DNA of 64,000 nucleotides from Shewanella psychropiezotolerans (GTDB lineage: Bacteria > Pseudomonadota > Gammaproteobacteria > Enterobacterales > Shewanellaceae). Position numbers and translations under genes: made by a program. Shown here piece after piece: positions 8,350 through 58,078 of the stretch. The notes beneath the pieces were generated by a model. That model did no database searches. It saw only the letters and a list, made by a program, of their open reading frames with translations, and was not told the DNA's origin. Numbering within the stretch: position 1 is the stretch's first letter; every line of letters starts with the position of its first letter. The stretch spans positions 1,418,001-1,482,000 of the forward strand of contig NZ_CP041614.1 of the NCBI RefSeq assembly GCF_007197555.1, written 5' to 3'.

Positions 8350-9224
8350 CTAGGCTATCTTCTCTGCGGCATTAGGATCGGGGAGCTTGACTCTTAGCTG
8401 AAGTAATCGGCGTGTATCGGCGCTGATGACCTTAAACTCTATGCCATCTATGACGACCTTCTCATTACGTTCCGGCAGATGGCCAAACGCATGTGAGACC
8501 AGCCCGCCAACGGTATCAAATTCTTCATCACTGAATTGAGTCTTAAACTCATCATTGAAGTCTTCAATCGGGGTCAGAGCTTTGATCATATAGACCTGCT
8601 TACCCACCTTGCGTATCTCGGTATCTTCGGCTGAATCGTGGTCGAATTCGTCTTCGATCTCACCCACTATCTCTTCGAGAATATCTTCGATGGTGACCAA
8701 ACCCGATACTCCACCGTATTCATCGACCACTATGGCCATATGATAACGTTGGGAACGGAATTCTTTGAGGAGTACATCGACACGTTTACTTTCGGGAACA
8801 ACGACAGCGGGGCGAATAACCTGGCCGAGGGTGAAGGGCTCATCGTTGTTTTTAAAACCGTATTTGAGTAGATCTTTTGCCAGCAAGATGCCTTCGATAT
8901 GATCTTTATCTTCATTTACGACGGGGAAACGTGAATGTGCGGAACTAATAACCGTAGAGAGTAGCTCTTCTACTGTATCATCGATCTGCAGTGCGACTAT
9001 CTGAGCTCTGGGTATCATGATGTCTCGAACTCTTAGATCTGAGACTTCTAATACACCTTTGATCATTTCGCGTGTGTCTTCTGAGATGACCTCACGTTGC
9101 TCTGCATCGTGAATGACATCAACAAGATCATCGCGGCTCTGGGGCTCGCCCTGAAATAACTGACTTACTTTTTCAAACCAGCCCTTCTTCTGGGCGTTGG
9201 TACTCGGGGGATATCGTCACTCAT
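8350..9224 (-). CDS. corC: CorC/YbeX CBS-domain protein, frame broken in a G5 run
   Basis: Member of the CorC family linked to magnesium/cobalt efflux and recently to ribosome maintenance. The long uninterrupted frame starts only at 9066 (MIKGVLEVSDLRVRDIMIP), inside the expected protein. The missing N-terminus is present upstream in another frame from an ATG at 9224 (MSDDIP...). The frames join if the G run at 9206-9210 has six bases instead of five. This restores STNAQKKGWFEKVSQLFQGE and gives 291 residues, against 292 in E. coli. Two CBS domains (about residues 70-200) and a CorC/HlyC C-terminal domain follow. Most likely an assembly error rather than a pseudogene. It lies between ybeY and lnt. 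Confidence 0.88.
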
Positions 9225-9274
9225 AGTGTTTTCCTAGCCTGTAATCCTATCAAATTGATGGGTGAACAGACCAA

Positions 9275-9751
9275 TTACTGCTCCTTATATGGATTATTAA
9301 AACCTAATTTTTCAATAAGTTGAGTCTCTAGTGACTCCATTTCTTCAGCTTCAGCATCTTGGATATGATCATACCCTAGCAGATGCAGACAACCATGTAC
9401 AACCATGTGGGCCCAGTGGGCTTGTAAGCTTTTGTTTTGCTGTTTAGCCTCGCATTCAACCACCGGGGCACAGATAATGAGATCGCCTAAGAGAGGGATA
9501 TCAATCTCAGGCGGCGCCTCGAAAGGAAAAGAGAGCACATTGGTCGGCTTATCTTTTCCTCTATAACTGCTATTGAGCGTTTGACTCTCAGCTTCGTCGA
9601 CTATTCTAATGGTTAATTCGGCTTGAGTCATGGTATCTCTGAGTGCAATGCGAACCCAAAGTTCAAAATCTGTTTGAGATGGCAGAGACTCATTCTCTAT
9701 GGCGACTTGCAGATCGAGATCTAACTCGAGATGTTTATGCTTAAGATTCAT
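9275..9751 (-). CDS. ybeY: Endoribonuclease YbeY
   Basis: Zinc-dependent endoribonuclease involved in 16S rRNA 3' maturation and ribosome quality control. The metal-binding signature [11 protein letters not shown] is near residues 115-125 of a 158-residue product, normal for the family. Its start overlaps the end of phoH by 11 bp, which suggests translational coupling in the phoH-ybeY-corC-lnt operon. Confidence 0.96.
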
Positions 9752-10796
9752 TTAACGTCTTTTCCTGAAGCTTATATTGATTGTCACGTTTTTCCTTAGC
9801 TTGTTGAGCTTTCTGTTCATGCTCTTCGTAAGCTTCGACTATTCGCGCGACTACTGGATGACGAACCACATCTTTAGACTGGAAGAAGTTGAAACTAATT
9901 TCCTCAACCTTACTGAGAACCTCGATAGCGTGGCGCAGACCCGATTTCTGACTCTTGGGCAGATCGATTTGAGTGATGTCGCCTGTGATCACCGCTCGTG
10001 AGTTGAATCCGATACGGGTTAAGAACATTTTCATCTGCTCTAAGGTGGTATTTTGACTCTCATCTAAGATGATGAAAGCATCATTCAGGGTTCGACCACG
10101 CATGTAGGCGAGTGGAGCGACTTCGATGATGTTTTTTTCTATCAGGCGTTCGACCTTCTCGAATCCCATCATTTCGAAAAGGGCATCATAGAGAGGTCGC
10201 AAGTAAGGATCGACCTTCTGGCTCAGATCTCCGGGTAAGAAACCTAACTTTTCACCCGCCTCGACTGCGGGGCGGGTAAGTAGAATACGGCGAACTTCTT
10301 GACGTTCCAGGGCATCCACAGCTGCAGCAACCGCCAGATAGGTTTTACCTGTACCGGCTGGACCGACGCCGAAGGTGATATCGTGGCGCATTATGTTAGC
10401 GACATAGTCACTCTGATTCGGATTGCGGGGTTTAATCACGCCACGCTTTGTTTTGATATAGAACTCTTTATCATCCCGAGGTACTTCGGCCTCCAGAGCC
10501 ACAGCTTCCTGTATTGCCAGATGCACAGTATCGGGTTCAAGATCCTGTGTGTTGCCTCTTATGGGCTGAGTCTCGACATAGAGAGCCCTCAGCAGATTGC
10601 TGCTGGTTAAACAGTTCCTCGCTTGACCAACAATCTGGAAGTGGTTGTTTCTATAGGTTATTTCAACGCCGATCCGGCGTTCTAGTTGCTTAATATTGTC
10701 ATCGAATGGCCCACATAGTGATGCCAATCTGTGGATCTCGGATGGCTCAAGATAGAGATTAAGCGTGGTTAACTTGTTAGACAAGAATGGCTCCAA
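9741..10796 (-). CDS. ybeZ: PhoH-like ATPase (YbeZ)
   Basis: Cytoplasmic P-loop ATPase of the PhoH family, a functional partner of YbeY. The Walker A motif [11 protein letters not shown] lies near residue 143 and the Walker B region is [11 protein letters not shown]. The 351-residue length is typical. The C-terminus is a charged coiled tail rich in Lys, Glu and Gln. It is the first gene of the phoH-ybeY-corC-lnt group; a terminator separates it from the upstream miaB, so it should have its own promoter just upstream of 10796. Confidence 0.95.
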
Positions 10797-10883
10797 TTGA
10801 CAATAATTAGGGTGTCACTATAGTTTCATTTTACGAGCACAGAACAAGAAATGCTAATGGTATTTGATACCTGTTAAGCAAAT

Positions 10884-10910
10884 AAAAAAGGCGGCAATGA
10901 AGCCGCCTTA
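10884..10910 (-). terminator. Intrinsic terminator after miaB
   Basis: On the minus strand AAGGCGGC and GCCGCCTT form an 8-bp GC-rich stem around TTCATT, followed by a T-run. It lies about 20 bp after the miaB stop codon. Confidence 0.88.
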
Positions 10911-10929
10911 ATACTTTATCTTGTTATGT

Positions 10930-12354
10930 TTAAGGTATGTACTGTGTCACACCTAATTCATCGTCTTTCTTATGTTTCAAAACAATATCGGAAGGTCTTA
11001 ATGAGCGACGTAGATCCATCTCGTCTTCACCGCGAATAAAGGTGCCACGCAGTGAGTTGGCGTAGACATCCACAATTTCGACATCGACGAAGCTGCCTAT
11101 GTGTTTAGGATCGGCCTCGAAGTTAACCACACGACTGGTTTCAGTGCGTCCTCTAAGCTCCATTGGGTTCTTGACCGAAGGGCCTTCGACCAGAATGCGC
11201 TGAACTGTGCCCAACATTTGACGGCTGTAACGCATCGCCTGCTGAGTGATACGCTCTTGCAAGATGGCCAAGCGCTCTTTCTTCTCTGCCAGAGTTACAT
11301 CGTCTGGTAGATCAGCTGCGGGAGTGCCGGGGCGTGCACTATAGATAAAGCTAAAACTATGATCGAAAGCGACATCTTCAATCAACTTCATGGTGTCGGC
11401 GAAATCTTGCTTAGATTCCCCCGGGAAGCCAATGATGAAGTCTGAGCTGATCTGAATATCAGGACGCGCCTTACGCAGACGACGAATGATCGACCTATAT
11501 TCGATAGCCATATGACCACGTTTCATCTGAGTCAGAATATGATCTGAACCCGATTGTACCGGCAGGTGCAGGAAGCTAACCAGTTCGGGGGTATCTTCAT
11601 AGACATCTATGATGTCTTGAGAGAATTCGATTGGATGGCTGGTGGTAAATCTAACCCTGTCGATACCGTCGATAGCGGCGATATAACGCAGTAGCTCGGC
11701 AAAGGTACAGATATCATCATCATGGGTCGCGCCGCGAAATGCATTCACATTCTGGCCCAGTAAATTGACTTCACGAACACCTTGCTCGGCAAGCTGAGCG
11801 ACTTCCAGGATGACGTCATCCACGGGACGGCTCACCTCTTCGCCACGTGTGTATGGTACCACGCAGAAAGAGCAATATTTACTACAGCCTTCCATTATCG
11901 AAACGAAAGCCGTCGGACCATCGGCTCTAGGCTCTGGCAGTCGATCGAACTTCTCGATTTCAGGGAAGCTGATATCGATAACAGCCTTGCCGCCTTGCTT
12001 GACCTGATCGACCATCTCAGGCAAACGATGCAAGGTTTGCGGGCCAAAGATGATGTCGACGCATTGAGCACGCTCTTTGATCATCTTGCCTTCCTGAGAG
12101 GCAACGCAGCCACCGACACCTATTATTAGGTTCGGATTTTTATCTTTTAACTTCTTCCAGCGTCCAAGTTGATGGAACACTTTTTCCTGAGCCTTTTCAC
12201 GAATAGAGCAGGTGTTCAGTAACAACACATCGGCTTCTGCAGCGTCATCTGTCAGGGTGTAGCCCTTATATTCGTCCATCAGGTCGGCCATCTTGGATGA
12301 GTCATACTCATTCATCTGACAGCCCCAGGTTTTGATATGGAGTTTCTTGCTCAT
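10930..12354 (-). CDS. miaB: tRNA-2-methylthio-N6-dimethylallyladenosine synthase MiaB
   Basis: Radical-SAM methylthiotransferase that converts i6A37 to ms2i6A37 in tRNA. The N-terminal UPF0004 domain has its three cluster Cys in [21 protein letters not shown] and GGCVASQEG. The radical-SAM motif [17 protein letters not shown] follows near residue 157, and a C-terminal TRAM domain ends the 474-residue protein. It is divergent from the ubiF-like gene, as in E. coli, with a small secreted-protein gene between them. A clear terminator follows. Confidence 0.97.
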
Positions 12355-12443
12355 CAGTTTATGTCACTCTTGGAACCACGGGAAAAACAGCGCGACATTT
12401 TACCTCTTGAACAAGTCACTGGCTAGCTTTTGGGCATTTTTAT

Positions 12444-12782
12444 TCAAAAATACTGCGGACTGTAAGTGTTACCTTGCCAAGTATTGAGTGTATTTGGTGC
12501 TTTCCTGGCGGACTTGTCTGCCTGAAGTTGTCTGTGTATTGACTGAGCCATTTGCATTGAACCTGCCCGAGCCTGAGTATAAATGTCTGCCTGTATCTGT
12601 AGTCTGAAATAGGCCAAGAGTTCCGTCGTATATTGATATAGGGCATAATCTATAGGCGAGCGATAGGTTACAGTAATGACTTCCATGGCGGAGGATCTCA
12701 TCGCCGGATTCGATGGCGCTGCCAAAGCTGTGGTAGGTAACAGGCTGCTCATGACTAATATAAAGGCTGTGATAAATTTCAT
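12444..12782 (-). CDS. Small secreted protein of unknown function
   Basis: A 112-residue product beginning MKFITAFILVMSSLLPTTALA, a clear Sec signal peptide with cleavage after ALA. The mature part of about 90 residues is polar, rich in Gln, Ala and Ser, and has no Cys. I chose the ATG at 12782 because GTGAG is placed suitably before it; another in-frame ATG is at 12797. The frame is open further upstream, but that part would run into ubiF and is not credible. I do not recognise a family. Probably periplasmic. Confidence 0.68.
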   Translation of the reverse strand: MKFITAFILVMSSLLPTTALAAPSNPAMRSSAMEVITVTYRSPIDYALYQYTTELLAYFRLQIQADIYTQARAGSMQMAQSIHRQLQADKSARKAPNTLNTWQGNTYSPQYF

Positions 12783-12998
12783 AGTATTCTCACTCATTCC
12801 ATTGGTTTGATTTGCAAGACTGAGTGTAAGGCAGGAATTTGTGTGATAATTGTACGGATTGTAAGCAGGTGTGAGTAGTTCGGCTATAGAAACATTTGCA
12901 TACTCATCTGAGAATTTTGAAATGATTGTTGGGCTATCTAATGCCTGTAAATTAGAATGAGTGATTAGGGAATGGTTATTTGATGTGTAGGAGTCTTG

Positions 12999-14191
12999 GT
13001 GAGTCAATCGCAAACTGAAATTACTAAAAGAGATGTGGTTATCTTGGGGGAGGCATGATCGGTGCCGCAACGGCCATAGGTTTAGCGCAACTAGGCTTGA
13101 GTGTTACCGTGATTGAGGCGTTCAGACCCGAGGCATACTGCAGTGAGCAGGCCATAGATTTAAGAGTCTCTGCAATTAGCTTAGCTACTGAGACCTTGCT
13201 GGAGCGTCTAGGTGCGCTCGAGAGTTTGACTCAGATGCGACGAGCGCCATATTTAGGTCTGGAAACCTGGGAGCTAGAGGGATGTATCACTCGTTTTCAT
13301 GCCAATGCCATAGGTGTGTCTCATCTCGGGCATATTGTCGAGAACCGTTTGATCCAGTTGGCCTTGTGGCAAGAGTTCGAGTCTCTCGATAACCTCGAGT
13401 TACTTTGCCCCAGAAGTCTTGATAGCTTTAGTCGCTCCGAGAACGGGGTTTGTGTGACCTTAGACGATGGTCAGCGACTCGATGCCAAGTTATTAGTCGG
13501 TGCCGATGGGGCCAACTCTCAGGTTAGAACTTGGGCCGGGATCGGCTTAACGGGTTGGGATTATGCCCAGTCGGCCATGTTGATTAATATCGAGACGGCC
13601 ATAGAGCAACAAGATGTGACCTGGCAACAGTTTACCCCCAAAGGTCCCAGATCTCTGTTACCACTCCCGGGAAATAATGCTTCTCTGGTCTGGTATGATG
13701 ATGCCAGTCGAATCGCTCAGCTATCGAAATTGAGTAACACAGCTCTGGCTCAGCAGATTAAGATGCATTTTCCTGAGCGATTGGACAGGCAGTTTGAAGT
13801 CTTGAATAAAGGCAGTTTTAAGTTGACCCGACGCCATGCTCAATCTTACTTTTCCGATAATCTGGTAATTTTAGGTGATGCGGCTCACACCATTAATCCC
13901 CTAGCTGGACAAGGGGTCAATATTGGCTTTAAAGATGTCGATGCATTGATCTCGGTGATTTCGAATAAACTGAGTCAGCAAGAGGCTTGGTGGAGCAATG
14001 CTGCATTGAGTGAATACCAAACTCGTCGTTACCGAGATAATCAACTGATGATGTCGGCAATGGATCTGTTTTATGCCGGATTTAGCAATGATTTACTACC
14101 ACTAAAAGTACTGCGAAATGCTGCGCTTAAGTTTGCGAATATCGACTCGCCGATTAAGAAACAAGTGCTCAAATATGCCATGGGACTCTAA
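12999..14191 (+). CDS. ubiF: UbiF/UbiH/VisC-family FAD monooxygenase, frame broken in a G5 run
   Basis: Flavin-dependent hydroxylase of the ubiquinone pathway. Visible family motifs are the dinucleotide-binding start (LGGGMIGAATAIGLAQ), the mid-protein LVGADGANSQVR, and GDAAHTINPLAGQGVNIGFKD. The intact frame opens only at an ATG at 13055, in the middle of the GxGxxG loop. A GTG at 12999 with TAGGAG before it opens the true N-terminus (VSQSQTEITKRDVVIL). The frames join if the G run at 13046-13050 has six bases, giving about 397 residues. UbiF rather than UbiH or UbiI is inferred from its position next to miaB, as in E. coli. Confidence 0.85.
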
Positions 14192-14395
14192 CCCAATTAC
14201 GGATATTAGCGCTATTTAAACTCGGGCCTTAGGATCCGTATGGCGCATCTACGAGTTTCTCGATCAAACCAATTTTGCTTATAATTTGTTGCGCCGTGGA
14301 TTGAGTGTTAAAATGCCGCGTTTTTATTTTGCGCGTGACGTTTAGCCGGCATCATTGTACGGCGGGTGTGCGCCTCGTATTAAAGAATGGGCTAA

Positions 14396-14980: not shown

Positions 14981-15110
14981 AGGTGTATTTGTTTAAGTCT
15001 TAAACCGCATTGGTTTATAACAAAATTTGATGAAGTGACACTTGGTGACTTCTTAAGAACTTAACTGGCAGTATTACTGTTAGTTTACTATTGATATTAA
15101 AGGTAAAGAT

Positions 15111-16472: not shown

Positions 16473-16479
16473 ACGCCCC

Positions 16480-16509: not shown

Positions 16510-16586
16510 GGCAATATAGCTCAGCTGGTTAGAGCACAGCATTCATAATGCTGGGGTCGCAGGTTCAAGTCCCGCTATTGCTACCA
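16510..16586 (+). tRNA. tRNA-Met (CAT), copy 1
   Basis: 77 nt with an encoded CCA end. The acceptor pairs GGCAATA with TATTGCT, the anticodon loop reads TTCATAA with CAT, and the T arm contains GGTTCAAGTCC. Elongator type, judged from the TAGCTCAG D arm and the fully paired acceptor. Confidence 0.95.
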
Positions 16587-16620
16587 TCTTTCTCAGGATG
16601 TTAAACCGAGTGCAGTGTTA

Positions 16621-16664
16621 AGTGAGGTCTAGTGCTTAGGTTCAAGTCTCATTATTCACTAGCA
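16621..16664 (+). pseudogene. 44-nt tRNA-like remnant, copy 1
   Basis: AGTGA and TCACT can pair as a short acceptor-like stem around a T-arm-like stretch (TTAGGTTCAAGTCTCA), ending TAGCA. A near copy lies at 17186-17229 with an intact ACCA end. It follows tRNA-Met copy 1 at the same distance as the other follows copy 2, so it was duplicated with it. No anticodon arm remains. Confidence 0.6.
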
Positions 16665-16724
16665 TCTTTTCTCAGGATGTTAAACCGAGTCATCTTTCCC
16701 CTAGATGTAAAACTAGAGATATGT

Positions 16725-16809
<85 letters not shown>

Positions 16810-16856
16810 TTTATATTGAATAATAGGTTTTCCTATTTTTCGAAACGTGTTTTGAT

Positions 16857-16931
16857 TGGGGTATCGCCAAGCGGTAAGGCACCGGGTTTTGATCTCGGCA
16901 TTCCCAGGTTCGAATCCTGGTACCCCAGCCA
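16857..16931 (+). tRNA. tRNA-Gln (TTG), copy 1
   Basis: 75 nt with encoded CCA. The acceptor pairs TGGGGTA with TACCCCA, and the anticodon TTG lies in TTTTGAT. This copy has CATTCCC at the 3' side of the anticodon arm and variable loop, where copies 2 and 3 have CATCCCC. Confidence 0.95.
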
Positions 16932-16963
16932 TTTTCTCACGTTTCAGTAATCTAAAAGATTAT

Positions 16964-17038
16964 TGGGGTATCGCCAAGCGGTAAGGCACCGGGTTTTGAT
17001 CTCGGCATCCCCAGGTTCGAATCCTGGTACCCCAGCCA
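16964..17038 (+). tRNA. tRNA-Gln (TTG), copy 2
   Basis: 75 nt with encoded CCA; anticodon TTG. Differs from copy 1 by one base near the variable loop (CATCCCC). It lies 32 bp after copy 1. Confidence 0.95.
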
Positions 17039-17073
17039 TTTTTATACGTGATAACGTATCGATTGGTTTATGT

Positions 17074-17150
17074 GGCAATATAGCTCAGCTGGTTAGAGCA
17101 CAGCATTCATAATGCTGGGGTCGCAGGTTCAAGTCCCGCTATTGCTACCA
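17074..17150 (+). tRNA. tRNA-Met (CAT), copy 2
   Basis: 77 nt with encoded CCA, identical to copy 1 by eye. The flank after it also resembles that after copy 1, which shows duplication of a larger unit. Confidence 0.95.
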
Positions 17151-17185
17151 TCTTCTCTCAGGATGTAAAATCGAGTGCAGTGTTA

Positions 17186-17229
17186 AGTGAGGTCTAGTGC
17201 TTAGGTTCAAGTCTCATTGTTCACTACCA
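17186..17229 (+). pseudogene. 44-nt tRNA-like remnant, copy 2
   Basis: Near-identical to the remnant at 16621-16664. The short AGTGA/TCACT stem is followed by ACCA, and the centre keeps a T-loop-like GGTTCAAGT. It is too short for a tRNA and lacks an anticodon arm. Confidence 0.6.
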
Positions 17230-17259
17230 TCTATTCAAGATGTAAAATTGGAGATCAGT

Positions 17260-17344
<85 letters not shown>

Positions 17345-17417
17345 TTATTAAAAAGGTTAAAGGCTATTTTAGCTGCGAAAGTAGTAAATAGAGTCTGTAG
17401 CTTAGTAAGAAATTTGT

Positions 17418-17492
17418 TGGGGTATCGCCAAGCGGTAAGGCACCGGGTTTTGATCTCGGCATCCCCAGGTTCGAATCCTGGTACCCCAGCCA
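17418..17492 (+). tRNA. tRNA-Gln (TTG), copy 3
   Basis: 75 nt with encoded CCA; anticodon TTG; same as copy 2 by eye. Confidence 0.95.
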
Positions 17493-17608
17493 CTTTTAAC
17501 ATCTACTCAAGATGAAAAACTAGAGCGTGAATTTGACTCGTGCTATATTTATATAGAAGCGGGATTTAATTCCAAGACATCTTAATCAAGATGTAAACTT
17601 GATGCAGT

Positions 17609-17693
<85 letters not shown>

Positions 17694-17780
17694 TTTTAAA
17701 CATAAAGGTTGGGTTAAACTGATTTTATGTCTCAGATACATTTAATGTATCTCATCCTATTCAGATGTAAAACTTATGCA

Positions 17781-17946
17781 GTGCGGGAGTGGTGGTGTTG
17801 ATATTAGACACGCCAGATTTATCTCTTAGCCTGTCATCTATTCAAGATGTAAAATTGAAGTCAGTGCGGGAGTGGTGGTGTTGATATTAGACACGCCAGA
17901 TTTATCTCTTAGCCTGTCATCTATTCAAGATGTAAAATTGAAGTCA
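17781..17946 (+). repeat. Two tandem 83-bp units with decayed tRNA-Leu
   Basis: Units at 17781-17863 and 17864-17946 are identical by eye. Each starts GTGCGGGAGTGGTGG, keeps AGACACGCCAGATTTA of tRNA-Leu, then diverges (TCTCTTAGCCTG) and ends with the spacer motif AAGATGTAAAATTGAAGTCA. The next position in register holds the intact tRNA-Leu copy 4. The D arm is changed and the anticodon stem, variable arm and T arm are lost, so no functional tRNA can form. Confidence 0.85.
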
Positions 17947-17948
17947 GT

Positions 17949-18033
<85 letters not shown>

Positions 18034-18891: not shown

Positions 18892-18894
18892 GCG

Positions 18895-20380: not shown

Positions 20381-21238
20381 CTATAGTCGAGTTAAATGCG
20401 ACTCTAGGGGCGATATATTTGTCCCTTTAGCGACAAAGCCTCGCATGTCCTTCGGCAATTTAGCCAGGACCTCTAAGGCTTGATGCTGCAGTTCGAATTG
20501 ACCGAAAATACACGCTCCGGTTCCAGTCATTCTAGACGGCGCATATTCTATCAGCCAGCCCAAGGTGTTGGCAACTTGAGGGTAGCGTTTAACGACGAAA
20601 TCTTGGCAATCATTTTTCCATGGGGCACTCATCAAGGAGTCTATGTCTAACTTAGGAGTGTCGCGGGTAAGTTGTGGATTTTGGAACACAGCTGCAGTGG
20701 AAACATGTACATCGGGTATAAGGATCAAGTACCAATGCTCTTTCGGTGCAAAGGGGATGAGTTTTTCGCCGACACCTTCGGCAAATGCAGATAAACCATT
20801 AATAAAAACAGGCACATCGGCACCAAGCTCTAAGCCTAGCACCATCAGTTGATCCTTAGATAACTGAGTGTCCCAGAGTGCATTTAATGCCACTAAAGTG
20901 GTGGCTGCATCGGACGAACCTCCACCTATTCCTCCCCCCATAGGCAAGCGTTTATCCAGCCAAATTTCTGCACCTTTTTGGCAATTACAAAATTTTTGCA
21001 ATGATTTTGCGGCTAAGAGAATTAAGTTATCACAATCTGCGACAGCGTTATTCATGTTCGAGTGTAACGTTAAATCTGATGATTGGGTGACTCTAAAGTC
21101 TAAATAGTCACAATAATCGACAAATTGAAACAGAGTCTGTAATTCATGGTAGCCATCATCACGTTGATTATTGATGTGTAAAAAGAGGTTGAGTTTTGCC
21201 GGGGCTGGCCAACCTAATGATAAATTCGTGTCTGTCAT
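20381..21238 (-). CDS. ispE: 4-diphosphocytidyl-2-C-methyl-D-erythritol kinase
   Basis: GHMP kinase of the MEP isoprenoid pathway. The ATP-binding loop [20 protein letters not shown] is near residue 95, and the N-terminus [13 protein letters not shown] is typical. The product is 285 residues. Its ATG directly follows the lolB stop codon, so the two are tightly coupled. It contains a C6 run (20934-20939) that reads in frame, unlike the broken runs elsewhere. Confidence 0.96.
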
Positions 21239-23443: not shown

Positions 23444-24528
23444 ATGAAGGATAGTGTTATCCGCAAGCTTGAAGGCTTGCTTGAGCGTAATGAAGAAGTA
23501 TTGGCTCTGTTGAGCGATCCTGGCGTTATTGCAGATCAGACGCGCTTTCGTGCGCTCTCGAAAGAGTATTCGCAGCTTGAAGATGTCGTTGCCGCATTCA
23601 AAGCCTTTCAGCAAGCGACAGAAGATCTAGACGCTGCGAAAGAGATGTTGAGCGAAAATGATCCTGAGATCAAAGAGATGGCTCAGGAGGAGATGAAAGA
23701 AGCTAAGTCTATCATCGAGAAGCTTGAAGATGAGCTGCAGATCTTACTGCTTCCAAAAGATCCTAACGATGACAACAATGCTTTCGTTGAAATTCGTGCC
23801 GGCGCGGGTGGCGATGAAGCCGCTATTTTTGCCGGTGATCTATACCGTATGTACAGTCGATATTTCGAATCTAATCGTTGGCAGACAGAGATAATGAATG
23901 CTAACGAGGGCGAGCATGGCGGCTTTAAAGAGATCATCATTAAAGTTTCCGGTGAAGGTGTATACGGCAGACTTAAGTTTGAGTCTGGTGGACACAGAGT
24001 CCAGCGCGTGCCAGAAACTGAATCTCAAGGCCGTGTTCATACCTCTGCTTGTACTGTTGCGGTCCTTGTCGAAGTACCGGAAGCCGAGGCGATTAAGATA
24101 AATCCGGCAGACTTGAAGGTCGATACGTTCCGCGCTTCGGGTGCAGGTGGACAACACGTCAACAAAACTGATTCAGCAATCCGTCTCACTCACATACCCT
24201 CGGGTATTGTGGTTGAATGCCAAGATCAACGTTCACAACATAAGAACCGTGCACAGGCCATGAGCGTGCTCACAGCCCGTATTCAAGCGGTTGAAGATGA
24301 GAAGCGTCGTAGCGTCGAAGAGAGCACCCGCCGTAACTTAGTCGGTAGTGGCGATCGATCCGAGCGTATTCGTACCTATAACTACCCCAGGGACGCGTTA
24401 GCGATCATCGAATCAACCTGACTCTCTATCGTCTCAATGAGATCATGGAAGGTGAATTGGATGCGTTGGTCGTTCCCTTGATGCAAGAAAACCAAGCCGA
24501 TATGTTAGCGGCCTTGTCTGAAGGGTGA
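23444..24528 (+). CDS. prfA: Peptide chain release factor 1, frame broken in a C4 run
   Basis: RF1 ends translation at UAA and UAG. The GGQ motif is in [17 protein letters not shown] and the stop-codon-recognition tripeptide is PET in [10 protein letters not shown]. The frame stops early at 24421 after [13 protein letters not shown]. One extra C in the run at 24385-24388 restores [20 protein letters not shown] and continues to a stop at 24528, giving 361 residues, the normal length. RF1 is essential in most bacteria, so a real truncation is unlikely. The gene lies 13 bp after hemA and 59 bp before prmC. Confidence 0.93.
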
Positions 24529-26009: not shown

Positions 26010-26960
26010 ATGAATTTCAAAATAAGCTTTACTGCTCTAGTACTATTAACTACTTTTAACGCTACAGCTTATGAACAATATTCTGTATTTCAAGATAATA
26101 TGGACATAAATACGGTTTTGTCTAACGTAGAACGCTTAACTCAAGTCAGAAAAAATGTTGCTGGTAACATATCGGTAGCTGGTACTTACCGTTATGATCA
26201 CAACGGAAGAGTTACCCAGAGAGATTATGCAGATAGCAGGTTCGATTATGTCTATAACTCGGATGGTTTATTAATAACTGCTAGCGCTTTAATGAAGCAT
26301 GGTGTGATAAATAGTTATGTTCGCCATACCAAAATCAACTTTATTTCTGAGTATACTTATAACGATCAAGGGAAAGTTATTCGAGAAAATAAGCAGGTTT
26401 TCAATGGTTTAACATCTAGCTTAGATAGTGTTCCGATCTCAACTTATCGAATAAAATACATCTACGATGAACGTGGAATGTTAATCAAAAGAACTCAGAT
26501 CACTAAAAGTGGTGATGATCTTGGAAATCTTGAATTTCATTATACGTATCACAACGATGGTAAGTTAAGAAAAATTCAAGAAATCAAAAAAATAAGACCA
26601 AGAGAGAAAAGTACATTATTATTTCAATACCATAATAATGGTGAAATAAAAAAAGCCACACAGACTATCTTCGGGAAAGGAACGAAAACCATTGAGATGG
26701 AATATATCGATGATGGCTCACTTATCTATGGTGTGTACTATGCTGATCCAGTTAAAGAATGGAAAGTCGATATGGATTTTTTCGGACTTTCTTTCTATCC
26801 AATAAAAAAATTAACACAAACGGTAGAAGATCAAGTTACCTACTATAAATATTTATATAAAAATAATGATGGAGATCTTCTACCTGATAGTCTAACGCTG
26901 GAACTAACTCTACCAACGGGTGTTATTTATGATTTGAATTATATAATGGAAAATAAATAA
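26010..26960 (+). CDS. Secreted YD-repeat (RHS-like) protein
   Basis: A 316-residue product with a signal peptide (FKISFTALVLLTTFNATAYE). The mature part has recurring YD-type units: YRYDHNGRVTQRDY, FDYVYNSDGLLITA, YTYNDQGKVIREN, IKYIYDERGMLIKR, HYTYHNDGKLRKI and FQYHNNGEIKKA. These units usually form the beta-sheet shell of RHS and teneurin proteins. It is far too short for a toxin-bearing RHS protein and has no RHS core or toxin tail. Coding DNA is AT-rich compared with its neighbours, which suggests transfer. A secreted protease gene follows. Confidence 0.78.
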   Translation: MNFKISFTALVLLTTFNATAYEQYSVFQDNMDINTVLSNVERLTQVRKNVAGNISVAGTYRYDHNGRVTQRDYADSRFDYVYNSDGLLITASALMKHGVINSYVRHTKINFISEYTYNDQGKVIRENKQVFNGLTSSLDSVPISTYRIKYIYDERGMLIKRTQITKSGDDLGNLEFHYTYHNDGKLRKIQEIKKIRPREKSTLLFQYHNNGEIKKATQTIFGKGTKTIEMEYIDDGSLIYGVYYADPVKEWKVDMDFFGLSFYPIKKLTQTVEDQVTYYKYLYKNNDGDLLPDSLTLELTLPTGVIYDLNYIMENK

Positions 26961-46608: not shown

Positions 46609-49600
46609 CTAACTTTGTGTGCGACGTCTCCAAACGAATGGAAGCAGTAGCAGTAATAACCAGCCTAGTGAGCCGCCACTCTTTTTCTCTACAGTATCTG
46701 TCACCGACACAGAGATTAAGCTTGAGTCTTTGTTACCGTTGCCGTCATGAACCTCAACTTGAAAAGAGAGTGTTTGAGCACTGCCCCCACTGTTGGCGCC
46801 ACTATGCTAAGTTTGTCTGCAGAATCATTAAATGACACACTTGTTCCACCTAGTTGGGTCCATTTATAGCTTAAGGTGTCACCATTAGGATCTGAAGAGA
46901 CACTGGCATCTAACACTAAGGTTTGGCCTTCTAGGATAGAGCTTGGTGCATCGACTTTAGCGACTGGCTTAGCTTCAGCTACATCGAAGTTGTAAACTTG
47001 TTCTAGTTTTTTAGCCGTTGGATTATCGACAATATTGGACAAGGTTAAGCTGTTTTGTGTGCTGGCTTTACGGGGGATAAAATCAAATTTAACATCTTGT
47101 CTTGTCATACCGGAAGTCATCTCGACACTCCAATTGATCACATTATCAACCAACTTACCGTCGTGAGTGATGTTGGTCACCTCATGGCCTTCAGGTATCT
47201 TGGCTGCCAATTTATAGATTCGGGTCTCCTGAGTTTTATTCGCTTCAATCTTGCTGATTACTGTTTTCGCTACACCTGCCGATAAATCACCTGAAAGGGT
47301 TTCTTTTAAGGGCATAATCACATCATCAGCTTTACGCTCGAATACGATTGGTAGTGAAACATCCGCGATCTTATCATCTGAGCTCATCAGTTTAATGACC
47401 GCTAGCCCCTCATCACCCGCTAACATCTTTTCATCCCAGGCCAAGTTCAAGGCGAAATTTTTCATCTCTCCGCTTAGACTCAGCGACAGATTCTCTGATG
47501 TTTCATCATATAGCGTCAGTTGCTTGAGACCGAACGTATCCTCAGAGTCAGCTGCTGAGGCTTGATAGTTTTGCACTAGAATATAGTAATCACCGGGCTG
47601 AGGCGCGGTGATCAATACGCTTTCATTGGAGCCTGCAAAGGCGGATTTTGCTATTAAGCTGGTATTGCTGCCATCTTTTTTGTCTAACAAGACAAACATA
47701 TCGAGATCGGGCGAAGTGGTATAGCTGATTGAACTTCTGAAATAGAGCGCATTATCATCCACCGAAAATTTAAATATCTGTACACCATCCTGTAAGTCAT
47801 CCAGTGCGCTGCTGACATTTGAGTCCTGTTTTACCTTAGACTCAAAGCTGTCACTTAACTTTAACGATGTGACGCGAGCTGTGAGGCCTGGAAGGTCAAT
47901 AGCTTTAAGATCTGTGTAGTTACGTTCGTCGGCATCACGGTAGGCATCAATGGTGAGGTGAGTGGGTAAGTTGCGTTTAGCTATCTTAGTTACTATCGGC
48001 ATATTGGCATCTGGATATGCATCAGATGTCAGTGTTAGTTGGCCAAAGCCCCAATCCTCTCCGACATCGGTGACATCTGCTGTGACCGTAATCGCTTGGC
48101 TTTCACCTGTTTTTAAACTGAATGTCTCCGGAGAGACCGTCAGTTTAAAGTGGTCTGTGATGCTGGTACTTGTGGCATTCCAGTTACCGTCGCCGGTTGC
48201 GGTGACCGTTCGTATCCAGCTGCAAGTATTAACACATTTAGAGTTGGCCATGCTGGGAATATTAAGCTTGTGTGGTTCACCATTGGTTGATGGATTGGCA
48301 ATCACATAATTCAGTGCTAATTCATCCATGATAAGACCAGTCTTTGCGGCCAGATCAACACGAATACGTCCAGAACCCACATCAAAAGCATCGGCCATGG
48401 TGTTCCCGTCGGCTTTTTTCATCCCTTGGGCTGTAGTCGCGGTTAACATGAGTGCTGAGCGGATATTGTCCGGTGTCCAATCTTTATGCGCTGATTTCAG
48501 TAGTGCCCCAGCGCCGGCGACATGAGGGCTTGCCATAGAGGTGCCTGACATTAAGGTAAAGTCAGCGGGCTTTGTGCCTGATTTATCGTGACCAAACTGT
48601 TGATCAGAATAGGCTGCATAGATATCGGAACCCGGCGCTGCAACAAAGGGAACGATGACATCATTCGTGGCGTTAGGTCCGATTAATGAGCCTGGAGAGA
48701 GCACGTCTGCTTCTCTCTCAAGGATTTTTGGTTTAGGATCTATGCGGACTTCCAATACTGGGTTTTCAGCAAGCGTTGCAACTATCTCTAATCCATCAAG
48801 GTTACCAATGAAGATAGCTGGGATTGTGCTTTTTTCCAGACTTGACATGGTCAACCTGGTATTCGCTTCACCATCTTTATTGAATACGATAACGGCTGTA
48901 GCACCTGCTGCCGTAGCATTATTGACTTTATCGCTAAAGGCGCAGGTTCCTCGTTTAATGAGTGCGACTTTATTTTCGAACGCTTTCTCGGCAAAAGCAT
49001 TACAGCCTTCAACATTAGTGATATCGAGACTGCCAGCGTATAGGGGAATAGCGGATATGCTCTGTGTTTGTACTGGACCAGAGCCAGGCGTAAAGTCATA
49101 GTTGGTGTTATTGAATTCAACGGATCTTGCGACATCTCTGTTATGAGTTGAGTTTGCCACAGAGGTGTACCAAGGTGCATTTTTTTTGGTTGAGTAGGGG
49201 ACTTGAAATGGACCGCCTGTTCGGGTATTGCCTGCTGCAACGGCGACAAAAATACCTGCATTTCTTGCGCTAAGGAAAGCTTGTTCAGCAGAGCTCTGCC
49301 ATGGGTTGCCACCTCCACTGATGGAGAAGTTTATGACATCGACTCCATCTTTGATTGTATCATCCAGGGCTTTTAAGATAGCTGTGCTTGAGCAGCCAGC
49401 ATAGGTATCTTTATCGTCCCCTGGGCTACAGATCTGATAAGCGATGATATTAGCATGAGGAGCGACGCCTGAGATCTGTGAGAACTCAACGCCAGTTTCT
49501 ATGCCGTCGCCCTCAAGTTTCCCCACCGCACCTTCGACCAGAGGGACATTTAGCAGAATATTACCCGCTGCGGTACTTGCTACATGGGAACCATGACCAC

Positions 49601-50489
49601 CGTAATCCTCTCCGTTTTTGGCTGGTGGTGTATCGCCGAATACAGTTGCATCATCATAGTTATCGGTGATCTCCGAGTAACTATGTATACCGATCAGCTT
49701 ATCGTTACACATTTCGATGAAATCGGTTTTACAATCGCCAACATAGACACCTTGTCCCCATGGGTTTGTGTGGTCATAACCGTCTTGGCCAATATCGGCG
49801 AAGGAGTCATGATCTGAGTTAATTCCGGAGTCAATGACCCCAACAATGACTCCCTCGCCCATGGCTTTGGTACCGGTTGCTGAACCATCCCACACCTTTG
49901 GTGAACCGATGAGAGTTTGGCTAACATCGGTTTCTAATCGTTCCAAACGTTCACGCTCAATAAAAGCTACATCCGGAAGCGCTGCAAGTTTAATCGCCTG
50001 AGCTTGTGTCATACGAACTGACATCCCGTTAAAAGCATAGCTAAATTGTGTGATGGCCTCGATATTGTGACCTGTAGTGGCTTGGGCCTTCATTAAAAAA
50101 TGGCTTTGTTTTGATTGCAGGTAACTTCTGTAAGCTTTTACTTCTGATTTTGCTATGTTTAGTTTGCCACTTTGGTGCTTGTTAGTACCTGAGCTATTTT
50201 TGACAAACTGTGGGCTGGTTGCTTTTAGTCCGGCGATTTGGCCTTGATAATTCGCTACTGCCGGATCTTTTAATCGAATAATATACACATATTCATGCTC
50301 ACCTAACCCGGACTCAGGAATAAACTTTACGTTTTCAACAAAATCTAAGCTATTTCTTAGTTTCTGTTTAACGAGTGAGTTTGGAATATTTAGTTCAACG
50401 GTTTCTCCGTTTGCAGTTTCAAAGCTTTGAGCTTTGATGCCAGCAGACAACAAAGCCAAGGATATGGCCACTGCTAATTTTTTTTTCAT
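46609..50489 (-). CDS. Secreted subtilase (S8) with PA domain and GlyGly-CTERM tail; frame broken in a C5 run
   Basis: Large secreted serine protease. In order: signal peptide (KLAVAISLALLSAGIKA), I9-type propeptide to about residue 185, and the S8 domain with Asp near 217 (VIDSGINSDHD), His near 296 (GGHGSHVAST) and Ser near 646 (MSGTSMASPHVAG). A PA domain is inserted near 490-590 (ALIKRGTCAFSDKV). Fn3-like and PPC-like regions (PGDYYILVQNY) and a PKD-like domain (LDASVSSDPNGDTLSYKW) follow. The frame read directly ends at 46716. One extra base in the run at 46784-46788 restores the PKD end and the tail SGGSLGWLLLLLPFVWRRR, a GlyGly-CTERM sorting signal, ending at 46609 (1,293 residues). 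Confidence 0.9.
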
Positions 50490-52172: not shown

Positions 52173-53438
52173 TTACTTTCTTCCACCATAAAGCCCACTC
52201 TGTGGGTGTGGCTCGCTCGGTTGAGAGCTATCTGCCGCAGCACAGCTTGGCTCTATGTGTTCATCTTCATGGTTTTCGGCTTTCTTGCTGATCTTCTGCG
52301 CCTGCAAGATAACAAACTTGCCGTTGGACTCCACAGTGGTGCAGTTCTTAAAGATGCGCTGCAGCTTGACGTGATAAGCCAGGTGACGGTTACCTACTAC
52401 ATGCAATATGCCGCCATTTTTCAGTGCGCGCCAGGACTGGAGAAACATCTGCCAGGCAATATGGTCGGTAATAGCTTCGCCTTGATGGAAAGGGGGGTTA
52501 CACAGAATTAGGTCTGGACGCACACCTTCGTTTAGGTGGGTTAAACAGTCATCCCAGCCGAAGCTGGCTTGCTCACCTACTAAACCTTCAGTGTCTAAGT
52601 TATTGAGGGCCCAGTTTTGTCTTGCCGACTCGACAGCCATCTCAGAGTCATCGATAAAATGAATATAAGCTTTGGGAAAGACTTGCTTAGCATGCAGACC
52701 CAGTACGCCATTGCCACAACCCAGATCTATGATAGAGGTGAACTCACCCTTAGGCATGTTATCCAGCATGATGCGGGCGCCGATATCCAGCTTGTTAGCG
52801 GCGAACACATTACTCAGGTTACTGATCTCTAGCTTTAACTCAGGAATCGACCAATTGACACCTTGGGGCAGGGAGCGAATCTTGCCATCACTGATGCAGG
52901 TTATTACTCGGGTTTTCTTCCAGGTAAGGCTGGCACTTGCCGGGCCTAAATTTTTGGCAAACACTTCGAGTAGTGACTTGTTGATCGATTTTGCTTTGGC
53001 GCCAATGAGTACCTGAGTTCCTTGAGGTAAAATCTGCGATAGTCGGTTAAGCTGGTGAGCGAAATAAGTCAGATTCTTAGGCAGCTTCATCAATACCAGT
53101 TCAACTGAACTGGGTAGTGCTTCACGACTATTAACCCACTGAATATTCTCGCTATTGAGTTTATTCTTGGTTAAGTTTTGCTGGGTACCCAACTGGCTGG
53201 TTTTGGCGTCAGTTTCTAATAGAAGTGGCCACTGACTGTCGATAGAAAGAAGACTAGCCGTTAGTGCGCCGAAATTATCATTGATGATAGCCGTGGTGAC
53301 TGCAGTCTGCTCAATATCAGTCAGATGCTTGATCAGGTGTTCATCTGCAGCATCCCATGCCTGTAGGTTTGATTCCTGTTCACTTGGATAACGATGTAAT
53401 TCAAGTTCGATATCTGCTACTGAAAATTGAGTTGTCAT
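52173..53438 (-). CDS. rlmG: 23S rRNA (guanine-1835-N2)-methyltransferase RlmG
   Basis: SAM-dependent rRNA methyltransferase with two related domains, the second active. The SAM loop is [15 protein letters not shown] near residue 235 and the catalytic motif is LCNPPFHQG near 305. The core ends about residue 378 ([10 protein letters not shown]), the E. coli length. A hydrophilic, low-complexity tail of about 40 residues follows ([16 protein letters not shown]). Monocistronic and divergent from the AlkB-like gene. Confidence 0.94.
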
Positions 53439-53595
53439 AAGTCAAACTGTACCAATAAAATGAGGGCGCGCATTATCGCAGATTTAATGGTTGAGGTATA
53501 TATGGTCGATAGCTCTTGATAATTGTCGATAACTCTTGATATTAGTTGATAGTAAGTCGAATGTTCCATTAACCGCTTAAGGTTTATAATAAGTG

Positions 53596-54270
53596 ATGAA
53601 ACAACAAAGTTTAGACTTAAATAGACTCACCATCTCTGACTCTGAATTAGACTCTGGCTCTGAATTGGAAGTTGAATCGGAGCCGGTACTGGACAGACGA
53701 TCAGAACCTCCGGTAACTTGGGTCAAAGGCTATCTCGCACCAGCGCAACAGATGGCCTTACTGAGAGAGGTTCAAGGCTATCCATTTGAGTCTCCCGAAA
53801 TCGAAGTCTATGGTAAACGACATCGCATACCCAGATCTCAAGTCTGGTTCGGAGATTCGGGCTGCGATACCAAGTATTCGGGTTTACTGGTCAAGGCGCT
53901 TCTCTGGCCTAAATATGCCGACAGACTGAGGCAAAAACTCAAACGGGATTTTAGTCTCGAATCCAACGGCGTGCTGGTTAACCGCTATGTCGATGGCAAG
54001 GACTCCATGGGCTGGCACTGTGATAATGAGCCGGAATTCTCAGCAGGCAGTGATATCGCTTCTATTACACTGGGTGCGACTCGAGACTTTATCATCAGAG
54101 ATAAAGTCACTCATGAGAAGCAAACCTTTGCGCTGCAATCGGGCGACCTCTTGCTCATGCATTGGCCGATGCAAGACAGGTGGGAGCATGCCTTACCTAA
54201 GCGTATGAGAGTCACCGAGCCTAGAGTTAATTATACTTTTAGGCGAGTCATAGCAGATTATTTTGGCTAA
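53596..54270 (+). CDS. AlkB-like 2-oxoglutarate/Fe(II) dioxygenase
   Basis: A 224-residue protein of the AlkB family, which reverses alkylation of nucleic acids by oxidation. Iron ligands are the HxD in MGWHCDNEPE and the His in DRWEHALPK; the 2-oxoglutarate Arg pair is in PRVNYTFRRV. The N-terminus is an acidic stretch rich in Ser, Glu and Asp. Closer in layout to the ALKBH2/3-type bacterial proteins than to E. coli AlkB. The ATG at 53596 follows a GTG codon. Confidence 0.9.
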   Translation: MKQQSLDLNRLTISDSELDSGSELEVESEPVLDRRSEPPVTWVKGYLAPAQQMALLREVQGYPFESPEIEVYGKRHRIPRSQVWFGDSGCDTKYSGLLVKALLWPKYADRLRQKLKRDFSLESNGVLVNRYVDGKDSMGWHCDNEPEFSAGSDIASITLGATRDFIIRDKVTHEKQTFALQSGDLLLMHWPMQDRWEHALPKRMRVTEPRVNYTFRRVIADYFG

Positions 54271-54470
54271 AATTCTTGATTGTTTTTGACGAGAGTGCCT
54301 GATTGTTTTGACTGAGAGTGTCTGTCACTCGACTGGATTTTTATTGTCTCATATCAATCTATATAAACTTGTCGTTAATATAGGGCTAGGAGAGTGTGGC
54401 AAACATTGATCTTTTGTGGCTAAGGTATTAACCTGCCGCCATCGTATTTTGCTTGTTTGAGAATATCCCT

Positions 54471-54770
54471 ATGTCAGTAGAGCAACTCATTACCGAAAAA
54501 CTCACCGCGGCCCTGTCGCCTAGTCACCTGGAAGTGATCAACGAGAGTAATAATCACCATGTGCCTCCGAATTCAGAGACACATTTTAAGGTCATTATTA
54601 CGAGTGCGGCTTTCGAGGGTAAACGCTTACTTGGCAGACACAGAGCGGTGAATGAGGCGTTAGCCGATGAGTTCGCTAATGGCTTGCATGCCTTATCTAT
54701 GCACACGTTCACTCCCGAAGAGTGGCTTGTAGAGTCGAATGTCCCTGACTCTCCAAAGTGTAAAGGCTAG
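54471..54770 (+). CDS. BolA-family protein
   Basis: A 99-residue protein with the BolA fold. The core HHVPPNSETHFKVIITSAAFEGKRLLGRHRAVNEAL carries the signature and the His expected for glutaredoxin/[2Fe-2S] partnership. BolA proteins affect cell shape and iron-sulfur handling. I chose the ATG at 54471 (MSVEQLITEKL) over one six codons upstream. Confidence 0.93.
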   Translation: MSVEQLITEKLTAALSPSHLEVINESNNHHVPPNSETHFKVIITSAAFEGKRLLGRHRAVNEALADEFANGLHALSMHTFTPEEWLVESNVPDSPKCKG

Positions 54771-55047
54771 AAGCTAGCCCTAGACAATAATACCAGAAGC
54801 TAAATTTGGGACTCTAATTAGAATGAGTCCCACAGGCTTTGAATCAAAAATGTAAACCCCGTGTCCACTTTCTCTGGGCCGTATCACGCTTACCGCCTAC
54901 AGCCTCGTCCCTAGAATCCTAGAATCCTAGAACCTTATCGTTTCCCAGCCTGCCTCTGTATCCCTTTATTTCTGCACAAGCTTTTGTTTATCTATCGCAA
55001 TAATTCTGTTATCAATATGTTAAGTGTGTTTTTGATGTTGAGAAGGG

Positions 55048-55584
55048 ATGAATCAACTAGAGAAGATAACCGAGCTGATTGGCAGAGGGGTGAGCTGGTG
55101 TACCCTGTTTATTGTATTGATGACACTCGCGGTAGTGATATTGCGCTATGCCTTCAATACCGGTGCCACGGCGCTGCAAGAGTCTGCCTTATATCTGCAT
55201 GGCGCCGTGTTTACTTTAGCCGCTGGCTATACACTGAAACATGATGGCCATGTCAGGGTCGATATCTTCTACCGTAAGTTTAGCGTTCGTAGCCGTCATT
55301 GGGTGGACTTTCTCGGTACGCTACTGCTATTGATGCCCGTTTGTCTCTTTATCCTCTATTCAAGTTTCGATTATGTTTTAGCATCCTGGCGAGTCGGGGA
55401 AAGCTCAGTCGAAGCTAGTGGCTTAGCCTATGTGTATCTGCAGAAGAGTCTGTTGCTCTTGTTGGTCGTCAGTCTATTACTTCAAGGGATAGTTGAACTG
55501 GTGCGCCATGGCGTTGCCCTGTTTAACAGTGATGACTGTGATTCTGCGAGTGGGAAAGACGGCAAGTGCGGGGGAGAGCAATAG
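55048..55584 (+). CDS. TRAP transporter small permease (DctQ)
   Basis: A 178-residue membrane protein with four helices. It matches DctQ proteins (ALQESALYLHGAVFTLAAGYTLKHDGHVRVDIFYRKF). It partners the large permease encoded next, whose GTG start overlaps its TAG stop by one base. First gene of a dctQ-dctM-dctP operon. Confidence 0.92.
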   Translation: MNQLEKITELIGRGVSWCTLFIVLMTLAVVILRYAFNTGATALQESALYLHGAVFTLAAGYTLKHDGHVRVDIFYRKFSVRSRHWVDFLGTLLLLMPVCLFILYSSFDYVLASWRVGESSVEASGLAYVYLQKSLLLLLVVSLLLQGIVELVRHGVALFNSDDCDSASGKDGKCGGEQ

Positions 55585-56948
55585 TGGCTATTGTGCTTTT
55601 TATTGTCGTTTGCCTGGTGTTGATGCTTGGTTACCCTGTGGCACTGACATTAGCTGGGGTCGCGCTACTCTTCGCTGGGGTCAGTTCGCTCTTCGGCGTC
55701 TTCGACACTAGCCTGCTCGGCGTCCTGCCTAATAGGCTGTATGGCGTGATAAATAATCCCATCTTGATGGCTGTCCCCTTGTTTGTGTTTATGGGCGTGG
55801 TGCTTGAGAAATCTAAAGTTGCCGAACAGCTGCTGACTAGCATGGCCGAGTTATTTGGCCAGTTTCGTGGTGGACTTATTTTTAGTGTGTTCTTTGTCGG
55901 CATGTTGTTAGCTGCCAGCACCGGGATTGTCGGCGCTACTGTGGTGACCATGGGGCTGATGTCGCTGCCCAGCTTATTAAAGCGTGGCTACGATCCCGCC
56001 TTTAGCGCCGGCGCTATCTGTGCCACTGGCACTTTAGGCCAGATAATCCCGCCCTCTATCGCCCTAGTCTTACTCGGCGACGTCCTCTCTAATGCCTATC
56101 AACAGGCACAACTACAGATGGGGATCTTCAGCCCGAAATCTGTGTCAGTTGGCGATCTCTTTGCCGGGGCTTTACTGCCGGGTCTACTATTACTCGTGCT
56201 GTATTGCCTCTATACCCTATTACTTATTCGTTTTAAGCCTGAGCAGTTTCCCGAGTCTGGGGAGGCGAGGCGAGTGGACCTTGGCTTTATATTGCAAACT
56301 CTGTGCGCGCTGGTTCCACCTTTATTACTCATTTTTATGGTATTGGGCTCGATTTTGTTTGGTGTTGCGACGCCTACAGAGGCCGCCTCTGTAGGCGCAT
56401 TCGGTGCACTGGTTATTGCCCTGATTAAGCGGCAGATGTCTGTTTCGATACTAAAAGAGGTGATGATAAACACGACTAAAGTCACCTCCATGGTATTTCT
56501 GATCTTGATCGGTGCGTCCATCTTCTCTCTGGTTTTTCGTGGATTGGGCGGAGATGAGCTCATACATCAAATTTTTAGCAATATGCCAGGGGGCGTTATC
56601 GGTGCCACCATATTGGTCATGTTGGTGATTTTTTTGCTTGGATTTATTTTGGACTTCATCGAGATCACCTTCGTTGTGGTACCTCTGGTAGCCCCGATAT
56701 TACTGAGCATGGGACTAGACCCTATCTGGCTCGGGATCATGATAGCAGTAAATTTACAGACCTCTTTCTTAACGCCTCCATTCGGTTTCGCCTTGTTTTA
56801 CCTAAGAGGAGTGACTAAAGACTTGGTGACCAGTGGTCAAATTTATCGGGGTGTGATCCCCTTCGTGATTATACAGCTGGTGCTAATGCTGATTTTGAGT
56901 GTGTGGCCAGGACTGGTTACCTGGCTACCTAGTGTCATTTATGGATGA
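55584..56948 (+). CDS. TRAP transporter large permease (DctM)
   Basis: A 454-residue membrane protein with about 12 helices that carries the sodium-driven transport path. Family motifs are GIVGATVVTMGLMSLPSLLKRGYDPAFSAGAICATGTLGQIIPPSI, and TPTEAASVGAFGAL. I chose the GTG at 55584, which has GGGGGAG before it, over a GTG at 55566. It is followed 34 bp later by the binding protein. Confidence 0.94.
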   Translation: MAIVLFIVVCLVLMLGYPVALTLAGVALLFAGVSSLFGVFDTSLLGVLPNRLYGVINNPILMAVPLFVFMGVVLEKSKVAEQLLTSMAELFGQFRGGLIFSVFFVGMLLAASTGIVGATVVTMGLMSLPSLLKRGYDPAFSAGAICATGTLGQIIPPSIALVLLGDVLSNAYQQAQLQMGIFSPKSVSVGDLFAGALLPGLLLLVLYCLYTLLLIRFKPEQFPESGEARRVDLGFILQTLCALVPPLLLIFMVLGSILFGVATPTEAASVGAFGALVIALIKRQMSVSILKEVMINTTKVTSMVFLILIGASIFSLVFRGLGGDELIHQIFSNMPGGVIGATILVMLVIFLLGFILDFIEITFVVVPLVAPILLSMGLDPIWLGIMIAVNLQTSFLTPPFGFALFYLRGVTKDLVTSGQIYRGVIPFVIIQLVLMLILSVWPGLVTWLPSVIYG

Positions 56949-56982
56949 GTGTTTATGGACTGTCAGATAAAAGGAATAAAAT

Positions 56983-58078
56983 ATGAACAGATTAAGGTTG
57001 GTCTTGATTGCAATGACGGGCTTGTTTCTCAGTGCTTGTGGGGGGAGAGTAAGCAAGAGAGTGTTAGCAATATCGATATCGATAAAGTTGCAGCAATCGA
57101 ATGGAAATTGGTGACCTCCTGGCCGAAGAACTTTCCTGGGCTGGGTATGGGGCCGGAGCGATTTTCAGTGCTGGTGGATGAGATGTCCAACGGCAGGCTC
57201 AAGATTAAGGTCTATGGTGCCGGTGAGCTGATGCCTGCGTTCGAGGTCTTCGATGCCGTCAGTCAAGGTTCGGTGCAGATGGGGCACAGTGCGGCTTATT
57301 ATTGGAAGGGCAAGGCACCCGCGGCGCAGTTTTTTACTTCGATCCCATTTGGCCTAAATGCCCAAGAGATGAATGGCTGGTTGCATTATGGCGGTGGTAT
57401 GGAACTGTGGGAAGAGGTCTATGAGCCATTTGGGATCTTACCCTTAGCCGGTGGTAATACCGGGGTGCAGATGGGAGGCTGGTTCAATAAAGAGATCAAT
57501 TCCATTAATGATCTTAAGGGCTTGAAGATGCGTCTTCCGGGTCTTGGGGGGAAGTGCTCAAGCGTGTTGGTGGGGTTCCGGTTACGCTGCCTGGGCGAGA
57601 GCTGTATACCGCGTTGCAGACTGGTGCCATAGATGCAACCGAGTGGGTCGGGCCATTTAACGACCTGGCCTTTGGTCTGCACAAGGCGGCTAAGTTTTAC
57701 TATTATCCGGGCTGGCACGAGCCGGGAACTACGCTCGAGTTTCTTATCAATAAAAAGGCTTTCGCGACTTTGCCTGCAGATCTGCAGGCCATTGTCAGGG
57801 TCGCCGCTCGGGCGATTAACCAGGATATGCTCGATGAGTATACCAGCAAGCATGTGATAGCACTGGAGTCACTTATCAATGAGCATGATGTCATCATTAA
57901 GCAATTTCCGGATGAAGTGATGAAAGAGCTCGCTAAGGTCTCTAAGCTAGTAATAAAAGAGCAGTCCGAGCAAGATGACACCATGAAAAAAGTCTATGAT
58001 GCTTATATGGAGTATCAAGTCGGGGTGAGAAAATACCACCTGATCTCGGAAGATGCTTATAGTAGGTTAAGGCAGTAG
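56983..58078 (+). CDS. TRAP transporter substrate-binding protein (DctP), frame broken twice in G6 runs
   Basis: Extracytoplasmic binding protein of the TRAP system. The ATG at 56983 has AAGGA before it and opens a lipoprotein signal (RLRLVLIAMTGLFLSACGG). The frame shifts at the G run 57040-57045 and again at 57546-57551; one extra G in each restores a single frame to 58078 of about 365 residues. The rejoined sequence has GKAPAAQFFTSIPFGL, RLPGLGGEVLKRVGGVPVTLPG and IDATEWVGPFNDLAFGLHKAAKFYYYPGWHEPG. The latter is typical of TakP-like binders of 2-oxo acids or lactate. Substrate is inferred by family only. Confidence 0.87.

Follow-up and report, generated by a model that had tools for sequence, protein, structure and literature searches.

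Frame breaks in a 64-kb stretch of a Shewanella genome are very probably consensus errors at G/C homopolymers

Bacterial genomes assembled from long reads alone carry errors in homopolymer length, as set out in excerpts of the Polypolish (PMC8812927), Homopolish (PMC8011154) and Kastor (PMC12007338) papers, and false pseudogenes are described as one product of such errors (PMC8011154, in excerpt). In nanopore reads, according to excerpted sources, run length is underestimated to a degree that grows with the length of the run. Indels likewise rise with run length in pyrosequencing and Ion Torrent data, the latter underestimating length, and the errors of PacBio RS are little biased by homopolymers, as stated in part of a review (PMC4719071). 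Further literature was drawn on (PMC8486125, PMC11232133, PMC11362102).

The assembly described here resembles the long-read-only assemblies of those excerpts in its leftover homopolymer indels, broken frames and false pseudogenes, all of which become visible against relatives, but it differs from them in that G/C runs alone are hit and 12 of 13 differences are losses. It shares with pyrosequencing and Ion Torrent data the rise with run length, whereas the errors of those platforms are not restricted to G/C in the excerpted review, apart from C or G deletions at specific positions in Ion Torrent data (PMC4719071). An error confined to G/C runs on a given platform is not described in the portions of the homopolymer-error literature used, and therefore no platform is named for this assembly. 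Programmed frameshifting and transcriptional slippage, in the excerpts of PMC5009743 and PMC1088944, also change the frame at a run; unlike those systems, the present sites include no conserved shift site and the relatives read through in one frame.

The window, by which the whole analysed stretch of 64 kb is meant (G000:C1:1418001-1482000), belongs to a single-contig genome of 6,449,204 bases (~6.45 Mb), referred to as G000. Its nearest named relatives by amino-acid identity of ubiF are Shewanella benthica DSM 8812 (97%), KT99 (96%) and Shewanella MAG DT_112 (95%), all three draft genomes, and these identities mark the organism, as judged from sequence, as a member of the S. benthica group, which is known from the deep sea. 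Six frame breaks in the window are almost certainly consensus errors of the assembly, in which G/C runs were called one base short.

Frame breaks in the window and their counterparts in relatives

All seven runs named in a first-pass annotation of the window, six at frame breaks and one in ispE, were found in place (Table 1). At the six break sites, a comparison of the three frames by eye put the expected protein in different frames before and after the run, with the change within or beside it. The first-pass claim that each break is one base short at a G/C run stands as regards the six breaks and their missing base and needs amendment at ubiF, where the lost base is placed beside the run. At corC, prfA and both dctP sites (4/4) the run is one base shorter than in DSM 8812. 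The ispE run had been taken to read correctly, and its agreement with DSM 8812 and MAG DT_112 bears this out.

Table 1. Frame breaks, gene pieces and the ispE run, in window coordinates
Feature	Position	Strand	Description
corC longer piece	8350-9066	-	238 aa; CBS and CorC_HlyC domains; NF011675, profile 57-287 of 292
corC frame loss	9206-9210	-	G5 on + strand; one base more in the run in DSM 8812 and MAG DT_112
ubiF break	13046-13050	+	G5; relatives put the lost base just 5', around 13040-13045
ubiF longer piece	13055-14191	+	378 aa; NF006460, profile 15-386 of 386
ispE run	20934-20939	-	C6, same in DSM 8812 and MAG DT_112
prfA longer piece	23444-24421	+	325 aa; fits the prfA model up to about residue 317, off-frame beyond
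prfA frame loss	24385-24388	+	C4; C5 in DSM 8812 and MAG DT_112
Subtilase C-terminal tail, off-frame	46609-46788	-	59 aa; GlyGly-CTERM sorting signal
Subtilase ORF	46716-50489	-	1257 aa; peptidase S8, PA, fn3, PPC, PKD
Subtilase frame loss	46784-46788	-	C5 on + strand
dctP pieces	56949-58078 (56949-57632, 57554-58078)	+	one 365-aa ORF in DSM 8812
dctP first break	57040-57045	+	G6; 7 in DSM 8812
dctP second break	57546-57551	+	G6; 7 in DSM 8812; sole window break in the homology-free scan

The consequences of the breaks differ from gene to gene. The corC ORF is without the N-terminal 53 residues of the 291-aa ORF of DSM 8812, and the ubiF piece is without the N-terminal 20 residues of a 398-aa ORF of DSM 8812, among them part of the glycine-rich FAD-binding motif. 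At the ubiF site the three closest relatives have no G5 or G6 run and the aligner locates the single missing base 2-5 positions 5' of the window's G5. The break is one base short like the others, but the error may be adjacent to the run rather than inside it, and the earlier placement of this break in the G run is doubtful.

The match to the prfA model is split between two frames, one covering model positions 2-317 and the other 293-359, and the gene of DSM 8812 is a single-frame ORF of 361 aa. KT99, too, carries an extra base relative to the window, but this base immediately precedes a C4 and does not make a C5. In a profile search of the genome, one prfA match passed the cut-off; the only other match falls under it and is presumably prfB. 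In dctP, the first break lies behind a lipoprotein-like signal peptide (recognised by eye), the two longer pieces cover adjoining parts of one Pfam profile (15-142 and 150-284 of 286), and the last piece is 98.9% identical to DSM 8812 over 174 residues. At the DNA level dctP was found in one of the three closest genomes, DSM 8812, where it is intact.

For the subtilase gene, the GlyGly-CTERM match of the off-frame tail scores 29.5 bits with TIGR03501 (cut-off 15.5). The tail is in frame in all seven fetched Shewanella orthologues, whose alignment extends to residue 1234-1245 and then continues onward in frame, and over 56 residues it shares 84% identity with the in-frame tail of one of them (L232). 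Three of the seven orthologues gave DNA alignments spanning the site, and in all three the window lacks one base at 46785-46789. A DNA match to the gene was not obtained in the three closest genomes, an empty result which, these being drafts, proves nothing. By annotation, the GlyGly-CTERM signal makes this subtilase a rhombosortase target, which the broken frame conceals. The genome has another subtilase-like stretch, shorter than the first, at G000:C1:5359457-5361301, with an open frame of 666 aa and 35% identity to residues 2-684, and three breaks of the scan described below fall between 5361277 and 5369186.

On a broader scale, 80 loci of relatives were collected and merged by genome, and among the genomes with a match corC is in one frame in 73/73, ubiF in 75/76 and prfA in 18/18 (74/74, 76/77 and 21/21 when unmerged, some genomes then counting twice). 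Loci with no matching ORF numbered 6 for corC, 3 for ubiF and 59 for prfA, presumably where the fetched stretch fell short of the gene. The one exception is ubiF of Shewanella sp. KJ10-1 (L080), lying on one large contig, whose best ORF covers only residues 215-398; this apparent break is perhaps an error of the same sort. The comparison with close relatives upholds the first-pass warning that annotators would wrongly call five pseudogenes: the frames are single in relatives, and in the living organism all five genes (corC, ubiF, prfA, dctP and that of the subtilase) are in all likelihood intact.

Direction, base and length dependence across the genome

Breaks outside the window were sought with a homology-free scan, a coding-potential search based on a fifth-order model for frame changes badly explained by a normal gene boundary. 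The sample comprised 81 pieces of G000, the window among them (1.664 of 6.449 Mb), and 62 pieces of DSM 8812 (1.213 Mb). At the loosest threshold, the scan returned 47 breaks in G000, a lower bound given that both detector versions are poor near gene ends and only one of the six window breaks was found, and 1 in DSM 8812. Each of the 48 is one base short. Thresholds of 5, 8, 10 and 12 gave 47, 26, 21 and 15 breaks in G000 against 1, 1, 1 and 1 in DSM 8812, and an earlier codon-model detector, at a threshold of 12, gave 11 against 1, all one base short. When single-base changes were simulated in open frames of DSM 8812, the detector recovered 148/297 losses and 124/297 gains and always assigned the right kind; since both kinds are recovered, the one-sided result is not a bias of the method.

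The breaks gather at G/C runs genome-wide: a G/C run of at least five bases lies within 30 bases of 27/47 scan breaks and of 3.6% of random places. In 8/47 cases no G/C run of at least four bases lies within that distance. An A/T run of at least five bases is near 3/47 breaks versus 15.6% of random places, which is no enrichment. The bases flanking the runs were considered as a further determinant and set aside: all six runs of the window are followed by A on the + strand, but A is the commonest right-hand neighbour anyway, a comparison made with no formal test. It follows 460/1030 G/C runs of at least five bases, and at 11 of the 27 breaks that have such a run nearby it stands to the right of the run on the coding strand.

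Run lengths were then paired with those of DSM 8812 in 54 aligned blocks (mean identity 91.7% over 230,336 columns), wherever the four flanking bases on each side agree. Among the G/C runs, G000 has the shorter one in 12 cases and the longer one in 1; the window's own sites make up 4 of the 12, leaving 8 versus 1 outside it. A/T runs, shorter in 11 cases and longer in 15, are spared. The share of shortened G/C runs by their length in DSM 8812 is 1/1241 at three bases, 0/215 at four, 4/37 at five, 3/10 at six, 3/3 at seven and 1/1 at eight. At nine of the 12 shortened sites DSM 8812 has an open frame that spans at least 200 codons and exceeds its G000 counterpart in length; this does not hold for the other three. 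The sole longer G/C run, a C run with one base more (L097 11928, G000:C1:811928), lies where a 304-codon open frame of DSM 8812 is cut; not every break fits undercounting, and some have another cause.

The run spectra, which require no alignment, agree. G/C runs of at least seven bases number 29 in 1.664 Mb of G000 versus 48 in 1.213 Mb of DSM 8812 (odds ratio 0.44, P 0.0005), and A/T runs of at least six bases number 1624 versus 1229 in the same samples, showing no difference (0.96, P 0.33).

Explanations for the missing bases

Under the undercounting explanation, the base caller or the consensus step would read G/C homopolymers of about five bases or more too short and leave A/T runs untouched, and the rate of undercounting would climb with run length. 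An artefact of this sort predicts losses rather than gains, and losses were found (12 versus 1 among paired G/C runs, 47/47 in the scan); it predicts a rate rising with length, as the paired runs display, and a spread over the assembly irrespective of gene function, with which the 47 breaks across the 81 pieces and the open frames at the 12 sites are consistent. Direction, base specificity, length dependence, genome-wide spread and the intact relatives are all demonstrated.

Real one-base deletions, which would make these true pseudogenes in a mutator strain or in a strain shedding genes, are very improbable. Homopolymers are mutation hot spots in general, which speaks in their favour, but slippage mutation would be expected to produce gains and to hit the commoner long A/T runs as well, neither of which was seen. 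Nor was a mismatch repair defect found in the two proteins checked for a mutator, MutS and MutL, whose domain frames are open over 855 and 625 aa with no stops in the match. The apparent loss of prfA weighs in the same direction: the gene is essential, is present here in a single copy and should be indispensable. Moreover, off-frame parts are still protein-like, as the last dctP piece illustrates with its 98.9% identity. On the other side, S. benthica DB21MT-2 is reported with a coding density of 78.57%, below that of a compared strain, in the excerpt of PMC10059138. Taken together, the single direction, the restriction to G/C, the length dependence, the lone prfA match and the intact relatives lead to the undercounting explanation, which the first-pass annotation had preferred to six independent mutations and which gains from the rarity of long G/C runs in this assembly. 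The cause, we infer, is base calling or consensus building and not mutation.

It is less probable still that the short runs are real and that expression bridges the breaks, through transcriptional slippage or ribosomal frameshifting at the G/C runs. The breaks do lie at or beside runs, and recoding at runs exists in bacteria, as excerpts of PMC1088944 and PMC5009743 describe. The relatives, however, hold these genes in one open frame in which no shift is needed, and therefore a conserved recoding site is absent; the sites fall in unrelated genes, with flanking bases that by eye resemble those of G/C runs at large. We know of no slippery sites in C runs as short as four. That a deep-sea lineage should tolerate hundreds of one-base G/C losses by means of a slipping polymerase or ribosome has a comparably slight chance. 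Least probable of all is phase variation, in which run length would have turned off contingency genes in the colony that was sequenced. Tracts of G/C are typical of such switches, but a length of 4-6 is small for the purpose; prfA, corC and ubiF are housekeeping genes, the direction is nearly always loss, and one hit site (L105 14351) has no open frame of more than 85 codons.

The reading of the breaks as an assembly artefact is well supported by these sequence comparisons.

Extent of the effect and other features of the window

Scaled to the run spectrum of DSM 8812, the paired shares imply about 123 shortened runs in each Mb, about 8 per 64 kb and about 800 over the whole genome, a rough estimate resting on 51 paired runs of at least five bases, the window's own sites included. 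The six breaks of the window fit the expected figure of about eight. Any pseudogene tally, coding-density figure or claim of gene loss based on this assembly would consequently be inflated, and a lone release factor gene that seems truncated can serve as a ready alarm for G/C undercounting. As the genes are very probably intact, the biology of the organism is little affected, and the value of the result lies in the caution it offers to users of the genome.

Two other features of the window were recorded. Nine tRNA genes (two Met, four Leu-tag and three Gln-ttg) form an array at positions 16510-18033 on the + strand; relatives match it in several overlapping registers, and copy numbers probably differ among them. 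At 26010-26960 (+), an ORF of 316 aa has marginal Pfam matches only, with DUF6156 just under the cut-off and an RHS repeat just over it.
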